A stretch of 38,585 nucleotides of DNA from Burkholderiaceae bacterium. GTDB lineage: Bacteria > Pseudomonadota > Gammaproteobacteria > Burkholderiales > Burkholderiaceae_B. Both the position numbers and the translations under genes were made by a program. Every line of letters starts with the position of its first letter. Position 1 is the stretch's first letter. Below are positions 23,416 to 32,725 of this stretch, piece by piece. Location of the stretch: positions 1 to 38,585 of the forward strand of contig JANQYI010000028.1 of NCBI GenBank assembly GCA_030728985.1, in the 5' to 3' direction. The notes below the pieces were generated by a model. That model did not search any database and had not been told where the DNA came from. It worked only from the letters and a program-made list of their open reading frames with translations.

Positions 23416-24675
23416 TTATTCGAAATCAGGCAGGGCATCGTCAGGTCCGATATGCGCCGGCGTCGTCCAGGTGACATCACGCATCGAGCGCTGCACCAAG
23501 CGATCAACACCCAGCAACTTCGCAAAGATTGCCATCCGAATCGGAATGCCATTATCGGTTTGACGGAAAATCGCCAAACGAGGATCCGCGTTTAAATCGA
23601 CACTCAGATCATAGGAGCCAGGACGACTATCGCGTGGCAGCGGATGCATGATAACCACATCTTTTTTGCAGGCCTCGTTGACGAGCTTTTGATTGATTTC
23701 AAACTCTGCGCCATAACCATCGATCGCTTCTTCGCCGAAACGTTCTTTTTGAATGCGCGTGGCATACAAAATATCTGCTTTCCCCAAACCGTTTACCGGC
23801 GAGTCACTGAACTCAATCACATGCCCATTGCGACTGACCGCCTCGACAATCTCCGCGGGCATCTCCAAGGATTGCGGAGCGATCAAGGTGAATGTTAAGC
23901 CACGATACAGTGACAGCAACTTGATCAACGAGTGAACCGTGCGCCCATACTTCAAATCGCCGACCATCGCAATGTGTGCGCCATCGATGAGTTTTCCGAG
24001 ACGTGAAAACTCGCGCTGAATCGTGTAGAGATCTAAAAGCGCCTGACTCGGGTGCTCGCCGGGGCCATCGCCCCCATTAACCACAGGAATATTAGTGGCC
24101 TGCGCAAACTCCGCCACTGCACCCTTTTCTGGGTGACGGATCACCATCGCGTCGACATAACCACTCACGACACGACTGGTGTCATAAATCGACTCACCCT
24201 TGGCCATCGAGGAAAAAGTAAAGCCCGTTGTGTCACATACCGAGCCACCCAGCCGACAAAACGCGGCACCAAAACTAATTCGCGTACGCGTACTGGCTTC
24301 AAAAAATAAGTTGGCTAATACGGCGCCCTCGAGCACGCGGGTGACTTTTTGACGTCGAGCGATAGGCTGCATCACATCGGCGAGCCAAAACATCTCCTCA
24401 ACCGACTCTCGGGATAATTGATCGACCGATAACAAATGATTGGCTGAAAGGCTCGAAGACGAGCCCATGTGCGGGCTATTAGGCAAATTGGCGAGAATTT
24501 CCGTCACATAACGACGCGCAACCTCTGGCATCGCGCGATACTCGCTCGACTCATCGGGGAGCAGCCAACTGTCAAGCGTCCTGCGACGACAGCCAATCCG
24601 CTCCGCAAACGCGTCACGGGTCATGTTTAAACGGCGCATTGCATCCCGCAGCAGTGCCTGTGTCGCGATCGCCAT
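23416..24675 (-). CDS. pyrB: Aspartate carbamoyltransferase with N-terminal HTH-like extension
   Basis: The enzyme makes N-carbamoyl-aspartate from carbamoyl phosphate and aspartate in pyrimidine synthesis. Catalytic residues are intact: STRTR at 128-132, Lys159 in SSMAKGES, HPSQALLDLY, an Arg in TRIQKERFG and MHPLPRDSRPG. At 419 aa it exceeds the usual catalytic chain (about 310 aa). The extra N-terminal segment of about 75 residues resembles a Cro/C1-type helix-turn-helix (RLNMTRDAFAERIGCRRRTLDSW). This long form is known to me from betaproteobacteria, but the role of the extension is unclear. No pyrI regulatory subunit or pyrC is nearby. The start is supported by a strong AGGTGA site 6 bp ahead. 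GNAT lies upstream on the same strand. Confidence 0.88.
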   Translation of the reverse strand: MAIATQALLRDAMRRLNMTRDAFAERIGCRRRTLDSWLLPDESSEYRAMPEVARRYVTEILANLPNSPHMGSSSSLSANHLLSVDQLSRESVEEMFWLADVMQPIARRQKVTRVLEGAVLANLFFEASTRTRISFGAAFCRLGGSVCDTTGFTFSSMAKGESIYDTSRVVSGYVDAMVIRHPEKGAVAEFAQATNIPVVNGGDGPGEHPSQALLDLYTIQREFSRLGKLIDGAHIAMVGDLKYGRTVHSLIKLLSLYRGLTFTLIAPQSLEMPAEIVEAVSRNGHVIEFSDSPVNGLGKADILYATRIQKERFGEEAIDGYGAEFEINQKLVNEACKKDVVIMHPLPRDSRPGSYDLSVDLNADPRLAIFRQTDNGIPIRMAIFAKLLGVDRLVQRSMRDVTWTTPAHIGPDDALPDFE

Positions 24676-25208: not shown

Positions 25209-26591
25209 ATGCAATTAAGCTTGATCCCGGCGATTTTCATGTTCTACGGAATACTGTCAATCGCTTATTCCGTGACCTTGCTGTTTTATTTCTCCAAACA
25301 GAAAAATCGCGCGATCGAGAACTGCGCGCTTGGCGCTTTTCTTCTGGGTTCAGCGGCGATACTGACGGTCTTTCGAGTCGAAATCCACACCCTCATTTCC
25401 TACGTCGGCGCCAATGCGCTCGCCTTTCTCGCGTATCGATACTTCAACTACTCCCTCATCAATCTCCTCGACGAACAGCCCGACCTCAAACCGTCCTTTC
25501 TTCACAATCTGTCCGTCTTCACGGCTTACAGCGCAGCACTTTACACGATTGGAATTTTATTCAACCCTGGATACCAAACCATCTTTGTATGCCTCGCGGT
25601 TGTGTACATCACGACTCAGGCCGGATTTCTATCACTCAAGGTTTATCAGAAAAACCAGATCGACTTGATCAAAGTGTACGGCATCCTCTTTTTCTTTACG
25701 GCCGTGATGTGGAGTGCGCGCATTGTGCTCGTGATGCTCGATATCGCCACAGTCGCGTTTGACACCAACCTCATCAATACGATTATCTTTATCTCGATCT
25801 TTTTATTGGCGATTTTCCGCTACATGATTTTTCCCATTTTTCTTCTCAAGATCGCGGAGAACGAAAAAGAAAAACTACTCATCGATAGTTTGGTTTGGGC
25901 GAATAAAACGGCTGCGACCGGGGCTCTTTCGGCTTCACTCGCGCACGAACTCAATCAACCCCTGGGCGCGGTGCAAATCAACAGCGAGTTCATGAAACTT
26001 CAGCTCTCCAACAGCCGCCTCGACGAAGGTCTTCTTAAAGATCTCGCGGAAAAAATTGTGTCGGATAATTTACGGGCAGGTAGCATTATCCAATCCCTGC
26101 GTTCCATATTCAACGAAGAAAATCCTACGGCAAATTTGATTGATCTTGGCGATATCGTACAGTCCGTCCTCAAGATCACAACACCTGAACTATCCAGACG
26201 ACATATCAACATCAAATTACGTTTAGGCTCGCAGGCCATTGCGCGTGTCAATGCGCCAGAAATTCAACAAGTGATCTTGAATGTTTTAAACAATGCCATC
26301 CAAGCATTTTCGACGCTGAATCAAGACGACAAAGAAATCGTGATTGAAACGAGTCGTCAGCCGAACGGTGTGCATCTCAACATCCAGGACAATGGGCCGG
26401 GGATTCCCGTCGATCTTCAACCCAATATTTTTGAACTAACGACAAGCGGCAAGCGCAGCGGCATGGGTCTCGGTCTTTGGCTTTGCAAACAAATCGTATC
26501 AAGAAATGGCGGAACGATTTCTCATCATGATGTGGCAACCGGCGGTACGCAATTTCTGATCTTTTTACCCGGGGGAGACCTCCCTAAGTGA
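25209..26591 (+). CDS. Membrane sensor histidine kinase (seven predicted TM helices)
   Basis: A 460-aa sensor kinase. The N-terminal 215 residues contain about seven hydrophobic helices (first at 5-27, last at about 190-212) with no recognisable periplasmic domain, suggesting an integral-membrane sensor. The dimerisation/phospho-acceptor segment LAHELNQPLGAVQ places the phospho-His at 246. The ATPase part has the N-box VILNVLNNAIQAF, G1 DNGPGIP and G2 SGMGLGLWLC, all intact, so the kinase should be active. The ribosome site is weak. The TGA overlaps the GTG of the next kinase in a GTGA arrangement, so the two are translationally coupled. No response regulator is adjacent. The input signal is unknown. 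Confidence 0.9.
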   Translation: MQLSLIPAIFMFYGILSIAYSVTLLFYFSKQKNRAIENCALGAFLLGSAAILTVFRVEIHTLISYVGANALAFLAYRYFNYSLINLLDEQPDLKPSFLHNLSVFTAYSAALYTIGILFNPGYQTIFVCLAVVYITTQAGFLSLKVYQKNQIDLIKVYGILFFFTAVMWSARIVLVMLDIATVAFDTNLINTIIFISIFLLAIFRYMIFPIFLLKIAENEKEKLLIDSLVWANKTAATGALSASLAHELNQPLGAVQINSEFMKLQLSNSRLDEGLLKDLAEKIVSDNLRAGSIIQSLRSIFNEENPTANLIDLGDIVQSVLKITTPELSRRHINIKLRLGSQAIARVNAPEIQQVILNVLNNAIQAFSTLNQDDKEIVIETSRQPNGVHLNIQDNGPGIPVDLQPNIFELTTSGKRSGMGLGLWLCKQIVSRNGGTISHHDVATGGTQFLIFLPGGDLPK

Positions 26592-28726
26592 ATTGGTATA
26601 AATGTTTACTCATCCTTTGCAGTCTGATGCTGTGGAGCCCTGTCATCGATGCGACAGAACAAGTTCCCCGCGATGGCGTTGCACAAAATATCGCAAGCAG
26701 GTTGACACTGACAACGACAGAGCGGGCATGGCTCGAGCAAGCCCCTGTCGTCAGATTTCGGGTCGCGGAAAATCCCCCAGAGCAATTCTTTAAAAATGGC
26801 GTCGCTGTCGGCTTATCTGTGGATTATGCCAAGATCATTTGCGCCAACCTTAAACTGCAATGTGTTTTCACCCCTTACCTTGGTGGTCCGTTCGCCGAGG
26901 CCTTAAAAAAAATCGGTAAAGCCGATGGCCCTGATATTGTGCTTACAGGCCGCCGCACGAGAGAACGTGAAGCCTTTGCACTTTTTACAGAACCGTATTT
27001 ATTTACGCCTTCGGTTATTTTGACCAGACAGACGGTACCTAATATTTTTTCGCTCGCGGAGTTATCCGGTAAAAAAGTATTAGTAGAACGCGGCTATGTC
27101 ATTGCCAAGCTTATCAAAGACAACGTACCGAGCGTGGAACTCATCACCGTCAATACGACCTCTCAAGCTCTGGAGTCACTTGCAGGTGGAATTGGCGATG
27201 CTTATATCGGCAATCTGACCTCTTCTACTTTTTTGGCTGCAAAACTTAATCTCGCTAACTTAAAAGTCGCGGCTCCCACGAACTTTCCCATTCAAGGGGA
27301 AAGTATGATGGTGCGAACTGACTGGCCGGAGCTAGTCACCATGATTGATAAGGTTTTTGATGCCATCACACCGGGCGAAAAACAACAGCTCCAAAACTAC
27401 TGGTATTCGCTTGATTACGGCGATCGACACTGGCGCTTTATTGGAATCACCCTATCCATCGCCGCAGCACTATTAGCGCTTGCGCTCCTGACTTTTTTTT
27501 ACAGGAATCGCCAACTTCGCACTCAAGCGCAAAAGACTTCGAATCAAATGAGACGACTCGAGGATACCTTGCCTGGCGCCCTCTATGAGTACGCCATTGA
27601 TGCAGATGGCATCGGTCAATTCATTTACTTTAGCGAGAATATTTATTTCATCACGGGATACCGCGCTCTAGACTTGATGGGTCGCGATCAACTTCTCACC
27701 AAGGGCATTCATCTTGAAGATTTGCCCAAATTTTTAATTTCTATCAAATCGGCGCGCAGGACTGGCAAGCCTTTTTTTGTTGAACTGCGTTTTCAGGTAG
27801 CTGACGGCAGCTGGAAGTGGTTGCAAATGAATGCCGCCGCTCAAGGCAAAGATTTCATGACCACGAGATGGAGTGGTCTTATTTTAGATATCACGGACCG
27901 CAAACACATTGAAAACATAGCCGATCGTTCTGCCATAATTGAGCAAGAGTATGCCGCCGTCAAGCATTTGCTAAAGGAAAAAGATTACCTTGTCGCTTCC
28001 ATGCTTCACGACAATCATCATGCTGTCGCGAACGCCCTTTCTTCATCGATTGCACACGCGCTGAATCAACCGCTCGGAGCCTCGAGTTTAAACATTCAAT
28101 TTTTAAAGCGACAACTCGAACGCGACGAACTCAGCACGAGTGTGGGTCGCGAAATTTTAAATAATCTCGATGAGGATAATCAACGCGCCGCTAGTTTTAT
28201 TCAAACGCTTCGCTCTATTTTTTTAGACTCAAATGTCACCTCAACCACTTTGGATCTCAACGAGCAAATTCAAGAGGTTTTAAGCATCGTAAGGCCTGTG
28301 ATTTTAAATGCCAACATCACTCTTGATTTACAATTTTCTCCTGGTCTGTATGTTGCTATCCAAAAAAATGATCTTCAAAAAGTATTGTTGAATCTAATCA
28401 ATAATGCTTTAGAAGCATTTATTACCGAATCCTCTACCGCTCATGTCTATCGCTCAAACACCATTACGATCTGCACTACACGTAGCTTTGACAGTGTGTT
28501 GCTAAGCATTTCCGATAACGGCCGTGGAATTCCTTCTGAAAAAATACCCAGTCTTTTTGATCTACTCGCGAACGATCAAGAAAAAGCCACAGGTTTAAGC
28601 CTGTGGCTTTGTCAGCACATCATTCATCGCTACGACGGCAGGATTTGGTACGAACAACCCAACACGGTCGGCTGTCGATTTATTGTTGAACTTCCTTTTT
28701 ATGCGGAATCAACAAACTTGCAATAA
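26588..28726 (+). CDS. Sensor histidine kinase with SBP3 and PAS domains; altered H-box and G2 box
   Basis: A 712-aa sensor kinase, with the start at GTG 26588 inside the stop of the first kinase. Order: signal peptide (1-22), periplasmic solute-binding type 3 domain (about 45-270, with PPEQFFKNGVAVGLSVDYAK and LTGRRTREREAFALF), one TM helix (about 280-304), PAS domain (about 320-435) and kinase core (480-705). The phospho-acceptor segment reads IAHALNQPLG: His490 is present, but the following Glu, normally needed for phosphotransfer, is Ala491. The N-box (LLNLINNALEAF) and G1 (DNGRGIP) look normal. G2 reads ATGLSLWLC, lacking one glycine. The kinase core clearly parallels the upstream gene. 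It may be a weak kinase, phosphatase or partner subunit. Its 3' end overlaps terC by 47 bp. Confidence 0.9.
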   Translation: MNWYKCLLILCSLMLWSPVIDATEQVPRDGVAQNIASRLTLTTTERAWLEQAPVVRFRVAENPPEQFFKNGVAVGLSVDYAKIICANLKLQCVFTPYLGGPFAEALKKIGKADGPDIVLTGRRTREREAFALFTEPYLFTPSVILTRQTVPNIFSLAELSGKKVLVERGYVIAKLIKDNVPSVELITVNTTSQALESLAGGIGDAYIGNLTSSTFLAAKLNLANLKVAAPTNFPIQGESMMVRTDWPELVTMIDKVFDAITPGEKQQLQNYWYSLDYGDRHWRFIGITLSIAAALLALALLTFFYRNRQLRTQAQKTSNQMRRLEDTLPGALYEYAIDADGIGQFIYFSENIYFITGYRALDLMGRDQLLTKGIHLEDLPKFLISIKSARRTGKPFFVELRFQVADGSWKWLQMNAAAQGKDFMTTRWSGLILDITDRKHIENIADRSAIIEQEYAAVKHLLKEKDYLVASMLHDNHHAVANALSSSIAHALNQPLGASSLNIQFLKRQLERDELSTSVGREILNNLDEDNQRAASFIQTLRSIFLDSNVTSTTLDLNEQIQEVLSIVRPVILNANITLDLQFSPGLYVAIQKNDLQKVLLNLINNALEAFITESSTAHVYRSNTITICTTRSFDSVLLSISDNGRGIPSEKIPSLFDLLANDQEKATGLSLWLCQHIIHRYDGRIWYEQPNTVGCRFIVELPFYAESTNLQ
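28581..28610 (-). terminator. Rho-independent terminator of terC, inside the second kinase gene
   Basis: A perfect 11-bp stem (28583-28593 with 28600-28610) closes a 6-nt loop. Read on the minus strand the stem ends in a run of five T (complement of the A run at 28581-28585), the classical terminator form. It lies 70 bp past the terC stop. It is wholly within the coding sequence of the convergent kinase, over the codons of its G2 box. Confidence 0.75.
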
Positions 28727-29639
28727 TCGCAGTCAACAATATCGCCCCCACGACCATGAGCGAGATCGTGACAGGGATTTTGATCCAGTCAACAATTAAC
28801 ATTTTAGTACCTACGAATACCAGTATAAAACCGAGGCCGTAAGTCAATAAATGAAACCGGTCTTTTAAGTCCGCGAGCAAAAAGTACATCGCGCGAAGTC
28901 CCAAGATCGCAAAAATATTTGAGGTCATCACGATAAAGGGATCTTCAGTAATCGCGAAAATCGCCGGAATACTATCGACCGCAAAAATCACGTCTGTGAT
29001 GCCGATCATGATGACCACGACAAACAACGGTGTAAAAAAACGGACGCCGTTTTTGTAGACCCAAAACTGCTCGCCTTCGAAGTTCGGCAATATATTCATA
29101 TGCCTCCGCATCCATTTAAGGATGGGGTTTTTCTCTAGGTCCGCCTCGGCCTCCGCAAACACCAACATTTTGATACCGGTCGCCAAGAGGAATACGCCGA
29201 AGACATACAAAATCCAATGAAATTCTTTGATCAACCACGCGCCAATCAAAATCATCACTGCGCGCAGCACAATGGCACCGATCACACCTAGGATCAGCAC
29301 ACGCTTTTGCAGATGCGGGGGAACACCAAAAAAAGTGAACAACATTAGGAATACAAAAATGTTGTCAACCGCCAACGACTTTTCAATGAGATAGCCCGTT
29401 AGGAATTCTGACCCTTTTTGATTGGCCAATTCTCTGCCGGACTGTCCGTCTATGTACCACCACAATAATGCATTAAATACCAAGGCCAGAAACACCCAGA
29501 GTGCGGACCAACGTAACGCTTGCCCTATCGACACCTTATCGTCGCCCTTTCGTTGCAATACCAACAGGTCTACGGCGCATGCCACCACGACAAAAATCGC
29601 GAAACCCGTCCACATCCACCAACTTCCAATCGTTTCCAT
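28680..29639 (-). CDS. TerC/Alx family integral membrane protein
   Basis: A 319-aa TerC-family membrane protein with about nine hydrophobic helices. Conserved acidic positions lie in membrane segments: SLAVDNIFVF and DVIFAVDSIPAIFAIT, which are the family's paired Asp motifs, probably for divalent metal. Family members such as E. coli Alx are linked to manganese export and alkaline or tellurite response. The length and the ending HKKEVQQ fit Alx-like proteins. No yybP-ykoY riboswitch lies upstream, unlike the terC at 38081. It is divergent from the NhaR-like gene (141 bp) and converges on the kinase gene with a 47-bp overlap. A terminator lies 70 bp past its stop. Confidence 0.9.
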   Translation of the reverse strand: METIGSWWMWTGFAIFVVVACAVDLLVLQRKGDDKVSIGQALRWSALWVFLALVFNALLWWYIDGQSGRELANQKGSEFLTGYLIEKSLAVDNIFVFLMLFTFFGVPPHLQKRVLILGVIGAIVLRAVMILIGAWLIKEFHWILYVFGVFLLATGIKMLVFAEAEADLEKNPILKWMRRHMNILPNFEGEQFWVYKNGVRFFTPLFVVVIMIGITDVIFAVDSIPAIFAITEDPFIVMTSNIFAILGLRAMYFLLADLKDRFHLLTYGLGFILVFVGTKMLIVDWIKIPVTISLMVVGAILLTAIIASLLIPHKKEVQQ

Positions 29640-29780: not shown

Positions 29781-30665
29781 ATGCTTAATTATCATCACCT
29801 TCGCTATTTCTGGGCGGTTGCCACAGAAGGAAACCTCGCCAACGCTGCGGAAAAACTCGGCGTCAGCGTTCAGACCGTCAGTGGGCAAATTTCAAAACTT
29901 GAAAGTGACTTGGGCCGCACTTTGTTTCAACTTGAAGGTCGACGACTCGTGCTGACCGAAGCCGGACGCGTCGCGCGCCGCTATGCAGATGAGATTTTTC
30001 GTCTAGGTGAACAAATGCTTGGCAGCCTCTCTGACGAGTCGCTTGAGCGCACGCTTCGCCTCACGATCGGCGTCTCGGATGTTTTACCTAAAACCGTTTC
30101 TTATCGCCTATTAGCCCCCATTCTGCGCGGCGATCTTCAAGTCAAAATTGAATGTATCGAGGGTCGCTTCGAAGAGTTATTACCCTCACTCCTCATGCAT
30201 CGTTTAGATCTCGTGCTTTCAGATCGGCCCTATGCGCTGGGTGGACCACAACAAATCCGTTCGCATTTGCTTGGAAAAATTCCAGTCTCCATTTTCGGGA
30301 CCACTCACCTCACCTCAACGCTAAAAGGATCCTTTCCAAGATGTCTCAAAGGACAACCCATGCTCTTACCCACCCATGGCAGCGTGCTACGCGCGCAAGT
30401 CGACGATTGGTTGAACCAGCAGCGGATTCAGGTTAACGTTATTGGAGAGTTTGATGATGGTGCGCTCATGAAAACCTTTGGTATGCATGGTGAGGGTTTT
30501 TTTCCAACGCCCTGTGTTGACCCCACAGATATCACGACACAATTTCATGTCGATCATGTTGGACGGGTCGAGGACGTCTATGAAAGTTATTACGCCTTGA
30601 TCGATCGTCCGAAACTTAACAACCCAGCCGTTCAAGCCCTGCTCGCGACCCTAAAAAACACATGA
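29781..30665 (+). CDS. LysR-type regulator resembling NhaR
   Basis: A 294-aa LysR-type regulator. The N-terminal HTH has YHHLRYFWAVATEGNLANAA and LGVSVQTVSGQISKLESDLG. The C-terminal part reads like NhaR (LTEAGRVARRYADEIFRLGEQML and LPTHGSVLRAQVDDW), a sodium/alkaline pH regulator of the nhaA antiporter in E. coli. No nhaA is in view. Divergent to terC and overlapping the next gene by 4 bp (ATGA), it probably controls one or both. TerC/Alx proteins respond to high pH in E. coli, which fits loosely (inference). The true effector is unknown. Confidence 0.88.
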   Translation: MLNYHHLRYFWAVATEGNLANAAEKLGVSVQTVSGQISKLESDLGRTLFQLEGRRLVLTEAGRVARRYADEIFRLGEQMLGSLSDESLERTLRLTIGVSDVLPKTVSYRLLAPILRGDLQVKIECIEGRFEELLPSLLMHRLDLVLSDRPYALGGPQQIRSHLLGKIPVSIFGTTHLTSTLKGSFPRCLKGQPMLLPTHGSVLRAQVDDWLNQQRIQVNVIGEFDDGALMKTFGMHGEGFFPTPCVDPTDITTQFHVDHVGRVEDVYESYYALIDRPKLNNPAVQALLATLKNT

Positions 30666-32688: not shown

Positions 32689-32725
32689 AAGGTGATCAAT
32701 CGATCGGTTGATCACCTTATTTTTT
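32689..32725 (+). terminator. Rho-independent terminator in the lysR-MATE gap
   Basis: A perfect 11-bp stem (32689-32699 with 32708-32718) closes an 8-nt loop and is followed by A and six T. It faces the plus strand, but no annotated plus-strand gene ends before it. The nearest upstream gene reads away. It therefore ends either a small RNA or a leader of the MATE gene, 53 bp ahead of that start. Confidence 0.65.

Follow-up and report, generated by a model that had tools for sequence, protein, structure and literature searches.

The window analysed here, a stretch of 38,585 nucleotides, is part of an 84,947-base contig from a single 2.35-Mb draft genome of a Burkholderiaceae bacterium that is 86.7% complete. 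Open reading frames and domain searches give the gene order K1 (+), K2 (+), terC (-) and a LysR-type gene (+) at the site described below. K1 (25209-26591, plus strand) is the upstream histidine kinase, as judged by reading frame, domain search, alignment and tree, and carries an intact GMGLGLWLC motif. K2 (26588-28726, plus strand) encodes a histidine-kinase-like protein of 712 amino acids with SBP_bac_3, PAS_3 and HATPase_c domains; its frame is intact, and both its H box and its G2 box are altered. The TerC-family membrane protein gene terC (28680-29639, minus strand) encodes 319 amino acids, and the LysR-type regulator gene, found by domain search, lies at 29781-30665 (plus strand). Upstream of K1, the window contains an aspartate/ornithine carbamoyltransferase-like gene (23416-24675, minus strand). 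K1 and K2 overlap by 4 nt (26588-26591, GTGA), with the GTG start of K2 over the TGA stop of K1, and the two may be translationally coupled despite belonging to different kinase clades. Their separate places in the tree contradict a sequence-only reading that had taken K2 for a local duplicate of K1. At the other end of K2, the last 47 nt of terC lie inside the kinase gene, tail to tail (28680-28726, both strands). This convergent overlap leaves zero intergenic room, and therefore any terC terminator must sit within K2.

Folding and scanning both place a hairpin there, at 28583-28610 on the terC (minus) strand, which reads AAAGCCACAGG / TTTAAG / CCTGTGGCTTT when written as the plus strand. The left arm AAAGCCACAGG (28583-28593, +) codes for K-A-T-G of K2, where the consensus of the relatives is x-G-M-G, and the right arm CCTGTGGCTTT (28600-28610, +) codes for L-W-L-C. 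All 11 of the 11 pairs are Watson-Crick, six of them G-C, and the loop has 6 nt, so that the perfect 11-bp stem and 6-nt loop described from the sequence alone are borne out; the hairpin is also where it had been placed, with limits of 28583-28610 and not 28581-28610. It begins 69 nt beyond the terC stop on the minus strand, which agrees with the earlier figure of about 70 bp. The T-rich tail (28577-28585, -), TTTTTCTTG, has 7 T in 9 positions when the count begins with the first T in the closing arm. Seen as a terminator, the structure comprises an 8-bp core followed by the TTTTTCTTG tail, three T of which double as outer stem pairs. A run of five T on the minus strand had been reported correctly, with the qualification that three of the five are also outer stem pairs.

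On the minus strand, the segment 28570-28625 folds at -25.6 kcal/mol against -9.9 +/- 2.4 kcal/mol for shuffled sequences (z -6.7), and none of 200 shuffles was equally stable; the stem-loop by itself reaches -17.6 kcal/mol. Among the 13,555 T-run starts of the window, the tail score of 5.16 ranks in the top 0.4%. Thus the site shows the sequence features of an intrinsic terminator, namely a stable GC-rich stem with a short loop, a U-rich tract and a gene on the same strand just upstream. No other hairpin on the terC strand comes close to it within 400 nt of that gene's stop, which upholds the earlier description of a terminator-shaped terC hairpin lying over the G2 box of the facing kinase. 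In those 400 nt, no other stem of at least 7 pairs with a tail of at least 4 T was found; the scan for stems of at least 7 pairs returned a single further case, whose tail has 3 T. A looser scan of the minus strand near the terC stop returned a 5-bp stem (28671-28659) as the sole other site.

To gauge the rarity of such a structure within coding sequence, 353,959 bases of this genome were scanned (the window plus 20 stretches), of which 324,843 lie within predicted frames. The class took in perfect stems no shorter than 8 bp that had at least 4 GC pairs, a loop of 3-9 nt and at least 6 T of 9. The K2 hairpin is the only member lying wholly within a predicted frame, and four lie outside frames; the frames follow a simple longest-ORF rule, which makes "inside a frame" approximate. 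Perfect stems of at least 10 bp with any tail number five distinct cases in the 353,959 bases, the K2 stem being the sole in-frame one. Outside predicted frames, a perfect 11-bp stem at 32689-32718 with a strong plus-strand T tail looks like an ordinary terminator. In 100 shuffles of the window, the pattern did not occur with up to 3 mismatches, and a comparison with Rfam at gathering scores matched nothing in the window.

When the whole order was searched for AGCCACAGN{4,10}CTGTGGCT, 27 of 399 genomes gave matches. Of the 27 matched loci read, one is the K2 site and none of the other 26 gave a G2-like reading, on the basis of the two longest frames of at least 150 codons per locus and with one match (G436:C81) left out. 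A separate arrangement was noticed in nine genomes of one genus, g76 (L113-L121), where at about locus position 1501 a perfect AGCCACAGC-N6-GCTGTGGCT stem with a variable loop is followed by (G/A)TTTTTT. This stem is in frame with an ORF reading HPATAxxLWLFF in all nine loci, the pattern being present in 9 of the 12 g76 genomes of the order-wide search. In L115, it begins 43 nt after a frame that we take to be FimV-like. A role as terminator or attenuator is possible for the g76 stem, which would then lie at the beginning of the following gene or immediately ahead of it.

Within K2, the hairpin region codes for K666-A-T-G-L-S-L-W-L-C675 of the 712 residues, and its translation agrees with the ATGLSLWLC that had been read across the G2 box. 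The G2 box is accordingly ATGLSLW instead of GxGxG, and the 26 aligned relatives read GxGxGLW or close to it. This alignment holds 24 loci, K1 and the G015 kinase; among the 30 loci collected, L002 is the window itself and L023, L024, L025, L029 and L031 stand outside the alignment, of which L023, L024 and L031 were read in addition and have intact G2 boxes, and L025 and L029 do not reach the kinase part. The first glycine (Gly1) is kept in 25 of the 26 aligned homologues and in 28 of the 29 related kinases read, and the third (Gly3) in 29 of 29, so the G2 box of K2 is indeed altered, as had been proposed. No perfect stem above 6 bp was found at G2 in the 26 homologues scanned. K1, likewise said to be intact and free of a hairpin, has GMGLGLWLC and a longest perfect stem of 4 bp around the motif. 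L030 has lost its first G2 glycine and has no stem above 6 bp there.

Which of the replaced residues the stem demands can be read from the codons. When all synonymous codons were enumerated in the K2 context, GMGLGLW allowed a perfect stem of at most 5 bp and the own peptides of four relatives at most 6-8 bp; both ATGLGLW and ATGLSLW allowed a 12-bp stem. The replacements that the K2 stem needs are Gly-to-Ala and Met-to-Thr. The serine codon AGC (28598-28600, +), at the third G2 glycine of the relatives, has its A and G in the loop and only its C in the stem, and GGC would supply the same C. Because the serine codon is mostly in the loop and glycine fits the stem equally well, Gly-to-Ser is not the price of the stem, and the earlier suggestion that tied this change to the hairpin falls, since serine and glycine both permit a best stem of 12 bp. 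An 11-bp stem in another register is open to three hypothetical mixtures in which the serine is retained; hence the calculation speaks to the K2 stem and not to every hairpin. As a source of the serine, inversion of the loop was considered and rejected, since the reversed loop, worked out by hand, yields no glycine codon there and a single base change is simpler.

The kinase itself departs from its relatives beyond the G2 box. The acidic residue of the H box and the glycines of the G2 box matter for histidine-kinase catalysis. In K2, the phospho-acceptor His is kept and is followed by an Ala codon (28058-28060, +), giving AHALNQP where most relatives have AHELNQP; Glu is found there in 26 of 26 aligned homologues, and K2 thus lacks the acidic residue after the H-box His that is expected of an active histidine kinase. 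The ATP-lid Lys, present in 24 of 26, is Gln. K2 breaks 5 of 31 near-invariant columns (the H-box Glu, the ATP-lid Lys, both outer G2 glycines and one Leu-to-Met), four of the five lying in the H box or the ATP lid. As a count this is ordinary, given that eight other rows (L008, L020, L021, L022, L026, L027, L028 and L030) break 5-9 columns, some of them drastically; what sets K2 apart is that it lacks the H-box Glu and Gly3, both kept by all other aligned rows. The HisKA domain was undetected in K2 at E <= 0.001, whereas each of the 6 other kinases scanned gave a match, two of these falling short of the curated cut-off; K1 shows HATPase_c together with a HisKA match just under that cut-off. 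Conversely, K2 retains the G1 box DNGRG, a HATPase_c (PF02518) match of 67.6 bits against a cut-off of 26.4, and an open frame of 712 codons.

The K2 branch measures 1.68, compared with 0.10-0.57 for the four rows of its group (L004, L005, L006 and L011), although its grouping has support of 89/87, below the tool's star, and other long branches exist, which makes its place in the tree uncertain. Three of the four group genomes (G025, G031 and G020) have no near-full-length terC, and in the fourth, G015, terC is about 58 kb away. Orthologs of K2 were found neither in 150 relatives and 268 family genomes, which are overlapping sets, nor in a contig scan, from which the genome of the window and any very close to it may be missing and which returned two distant kinases only (25-26%). 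The nearest sequence is L004, with 47% identity over the kinase part only, and the best score belongs to L003, at 35%. With its H-box Glu lost and its branch long, K2 is probably relaxed or non-catalytic anyway. As far as its sequence allows, the likeliest reading is a kinase-like protein that is still made and has weak or no autophosphorylation. These losses also bear on the idea that a kinase glycine was the price of the terminator. The serine drops out of it and the Gly-to-Ala and Met-to-Thr replacements stay, and the causal link is weakened by two further losses in K2, that of the H-box Glu, which lies well away from the stem, and that of the ATP-lid Lys. Loss of kinase constraint may have come before the stem.

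How terC ends elsewhere was followed in 32 genus genomes. Apart from the window, nine relatives in this set could be aligned along most of the protein, at 49-94% identity. In four of them (G015, G012, G029 and G022), the gene facing terC is a kinase of the K1 clade. In G012 and G022, 53 and 79 nt separate kinase and terC and hold a strong hairpin with 6 T of 9; in G012, the last 6 nt of the kinase gene take part in the outer pairs of this hairpin. The kinase genes of G015 and G029 run 11 and 8 nt into terC. Their G2 boxes are intact, and a search within 400 nt of the terC stop returned no hairpin with a T tail; the arrangement therefore does not force one. Altogether, six of the nine relatives (G012, G022, G005, G019, G023 and G004) have a hairpin that begins 16-53 nt beyond the stop of terC, with a tail of 6 T of 9 in G012 and G022 only; the other four have different surroundings and weaker tails (4-5 T of 9). 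All six are hairpins other than that of K2, at different positions. In G002, no T-tailed hairpin follows terC, and with G015 and G029 this indicates that terC apparently can manage without one. Judging from these sequences, terC often appears to end near a hairpin when it has room, and overlap does not oblige it to build one in the partner gene. Two further observations concern G015. An alpha/beta hydrolase gene precedes its terC-facing kinase (L062:3331-5459), in a neighbourhood unlike that of the window. Another related kinase gene of this genome, L006, shares 12 nt with a convergent frame of 311 aa (L071:1744-4086), and has an intact G2 box and no stem above 5 bp there, which is another overlap without an in-motif hairpin.

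Taken together, the hairpin is quite probably the intrinsic (Rho-independent) terminator of terC, set within an already weakly constrained K2. RNA polymerase leaving terC would enter the overlapping, opposed K2 gene, and the hairpin would be transcribed from the antisense strand of the K2 G2 codons. The polymerase would then stop at the U-rich stretch, before much antisense RNA to K2 is made. The G2 box would be expendable because catalytic constraint was presumably weak by then, with the H-box Glu and the ATP-lid Lys lost and the branch long, an order of events that we infer.

The explanation that competes best is a mutational by-product with no selected function, in which a template switch or a chance inverted repeat arose in a decaying kinase and its place behind terC is luck. 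The fast evolution of K2 (1.68 against 0.10-0.57) and the loss of its other motif residues would suit such an origin, and the terC genes of G015 and G029 manage without a terminator. Moreover, according to the available part of a report on template switching, this process puts multi-base changes into coding genes with no need of an adaptive explanation (PMC8604942). Nevertheless, an inverted-repeat event accounts for only three T of the tail, the tail lies on the terC side, and no other in-frame hairpin with such a tail occurs in 354 kb. A random palindrome would also rarely fall less than 100 nt from the stop of a facing gene with the right tail, which leaves the by-product explanation unlikely.

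Much further down stands an operator, that is, an 11-6-11 inverted repeat read by a dimeric DNA-binding protein. Its dyad symmetry is perfect and the LysR-type gene (29781-30665) is nearby; against it, the site lies deep within a gene, the T tail is left unexplained, only one copy exists in the 86.7% complete genome with up to 3 mismatches allowed, and the 8-bp core pattern was absent from the 31 other genus genomes searched, all of which makes it very improbable. The single copy also leaves the site unsupported as a dispersed repeat. Scarcely more credible is an action on the K2 mRNA itself, as a weak terminator or as an RNA structure lowering K2 expression, since the stem does gain a 12th pair on the plus strand (-19.0 kcal/mol) but has a tail there of 4 T of 9 scoring 3.86, against 5.16 on the minus strand, and would act 116 nt before the end of K2, inside translated mRNA.

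Whichever function it serves, the stem may keep a trace of its making. Against each of six related kinases, the right arm agrees at 8-10 of its 11 bases and the left arm at 4-6 of 11. It is likely from this comparison that the left arm is derived and that the right arm is the conserved one and the template. Most likely, the left arm was rewritten to match the Leu-Trp-Leu-Cys codons, by one template switch or by stepwise substitutions. A single template-switch event has been proposed as a source of perfect RNA stems (available part of PMC8794818), and template switching has been reported to cause multi-residue changes in coding genes, as well as to have turned a 4-bp repeat into an 11-bp arm in yeast UTP5 (available part of PMC8604942). 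The asymmetry between the arms is what a template switch would be expected to leave; the same outcome is predicted if substitutions accumulated stepwise while termination was selected for. An alternative alignment, in which one codon was lost and one gained, is possible. We propose tentatively, and with some doubt, that a single template switch put a copy of Leu-Trp-Leu-Cys over the Gly-Met codons, creating the terC terminator and removing Gly1 together.

Gene overlap makes signals and protein motifs share bases, and the K2 site shows this trade at its sharpest. Of the 29 related kinases read, nearly all keep the motif that the putative terminator spans, and the site sets apart the replacements which the stem needs (Ala, Thr) from one that it does not (Ser). 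It is also a test case, in a bacterium, for the sudden appearance of a perfect terminator stem. As in template-switch (quasipalindrome) mutations described in the parts available of PMC8794818 and PMC8604942, one arm has the look of a reverse-complement copy of the other and neighbouring residues are changed; unlike in those cases, the product in K2 would be a bacterial transcription terminator, and there is no near ancestor to compare. For the kinase, the best solved-structure sequence matches to K2 439-712 are FixL-type histidine kinases (PDB 4gcz, 8a7f), in an alignment that runs through the H box and the G2 box; the FixL chain has AHELNQP and TGMGVGL where K2 has AHALNQP and KATGLSL. The ChrS frameshift variant and DivL are kinase-like proteins described, in the part available of PMC9491836, as lacking catalytic function and still affecting signalling. 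K2 differs from these pseudokinases in keeping a full-length CA domain, and its loss of activity is putative. In Escherichia coli, according to the available part of PMC2174442, 58 convergent overlaps include 19 with a putative terminator in one gene and two with putative terminators in both genes. The terC/K2 pair resembles them in that a terminator, predicted in both systems, is forced into the coding sequence of the partner, and differs in that the K2 hairpin covers a catalytic motif and accompanies changed residues of that motif. A terminator inside the partner gene of a convergent overlap is hence a known layout, and one lying across the catalytic motif of a worn kinase is an unusual form of it.
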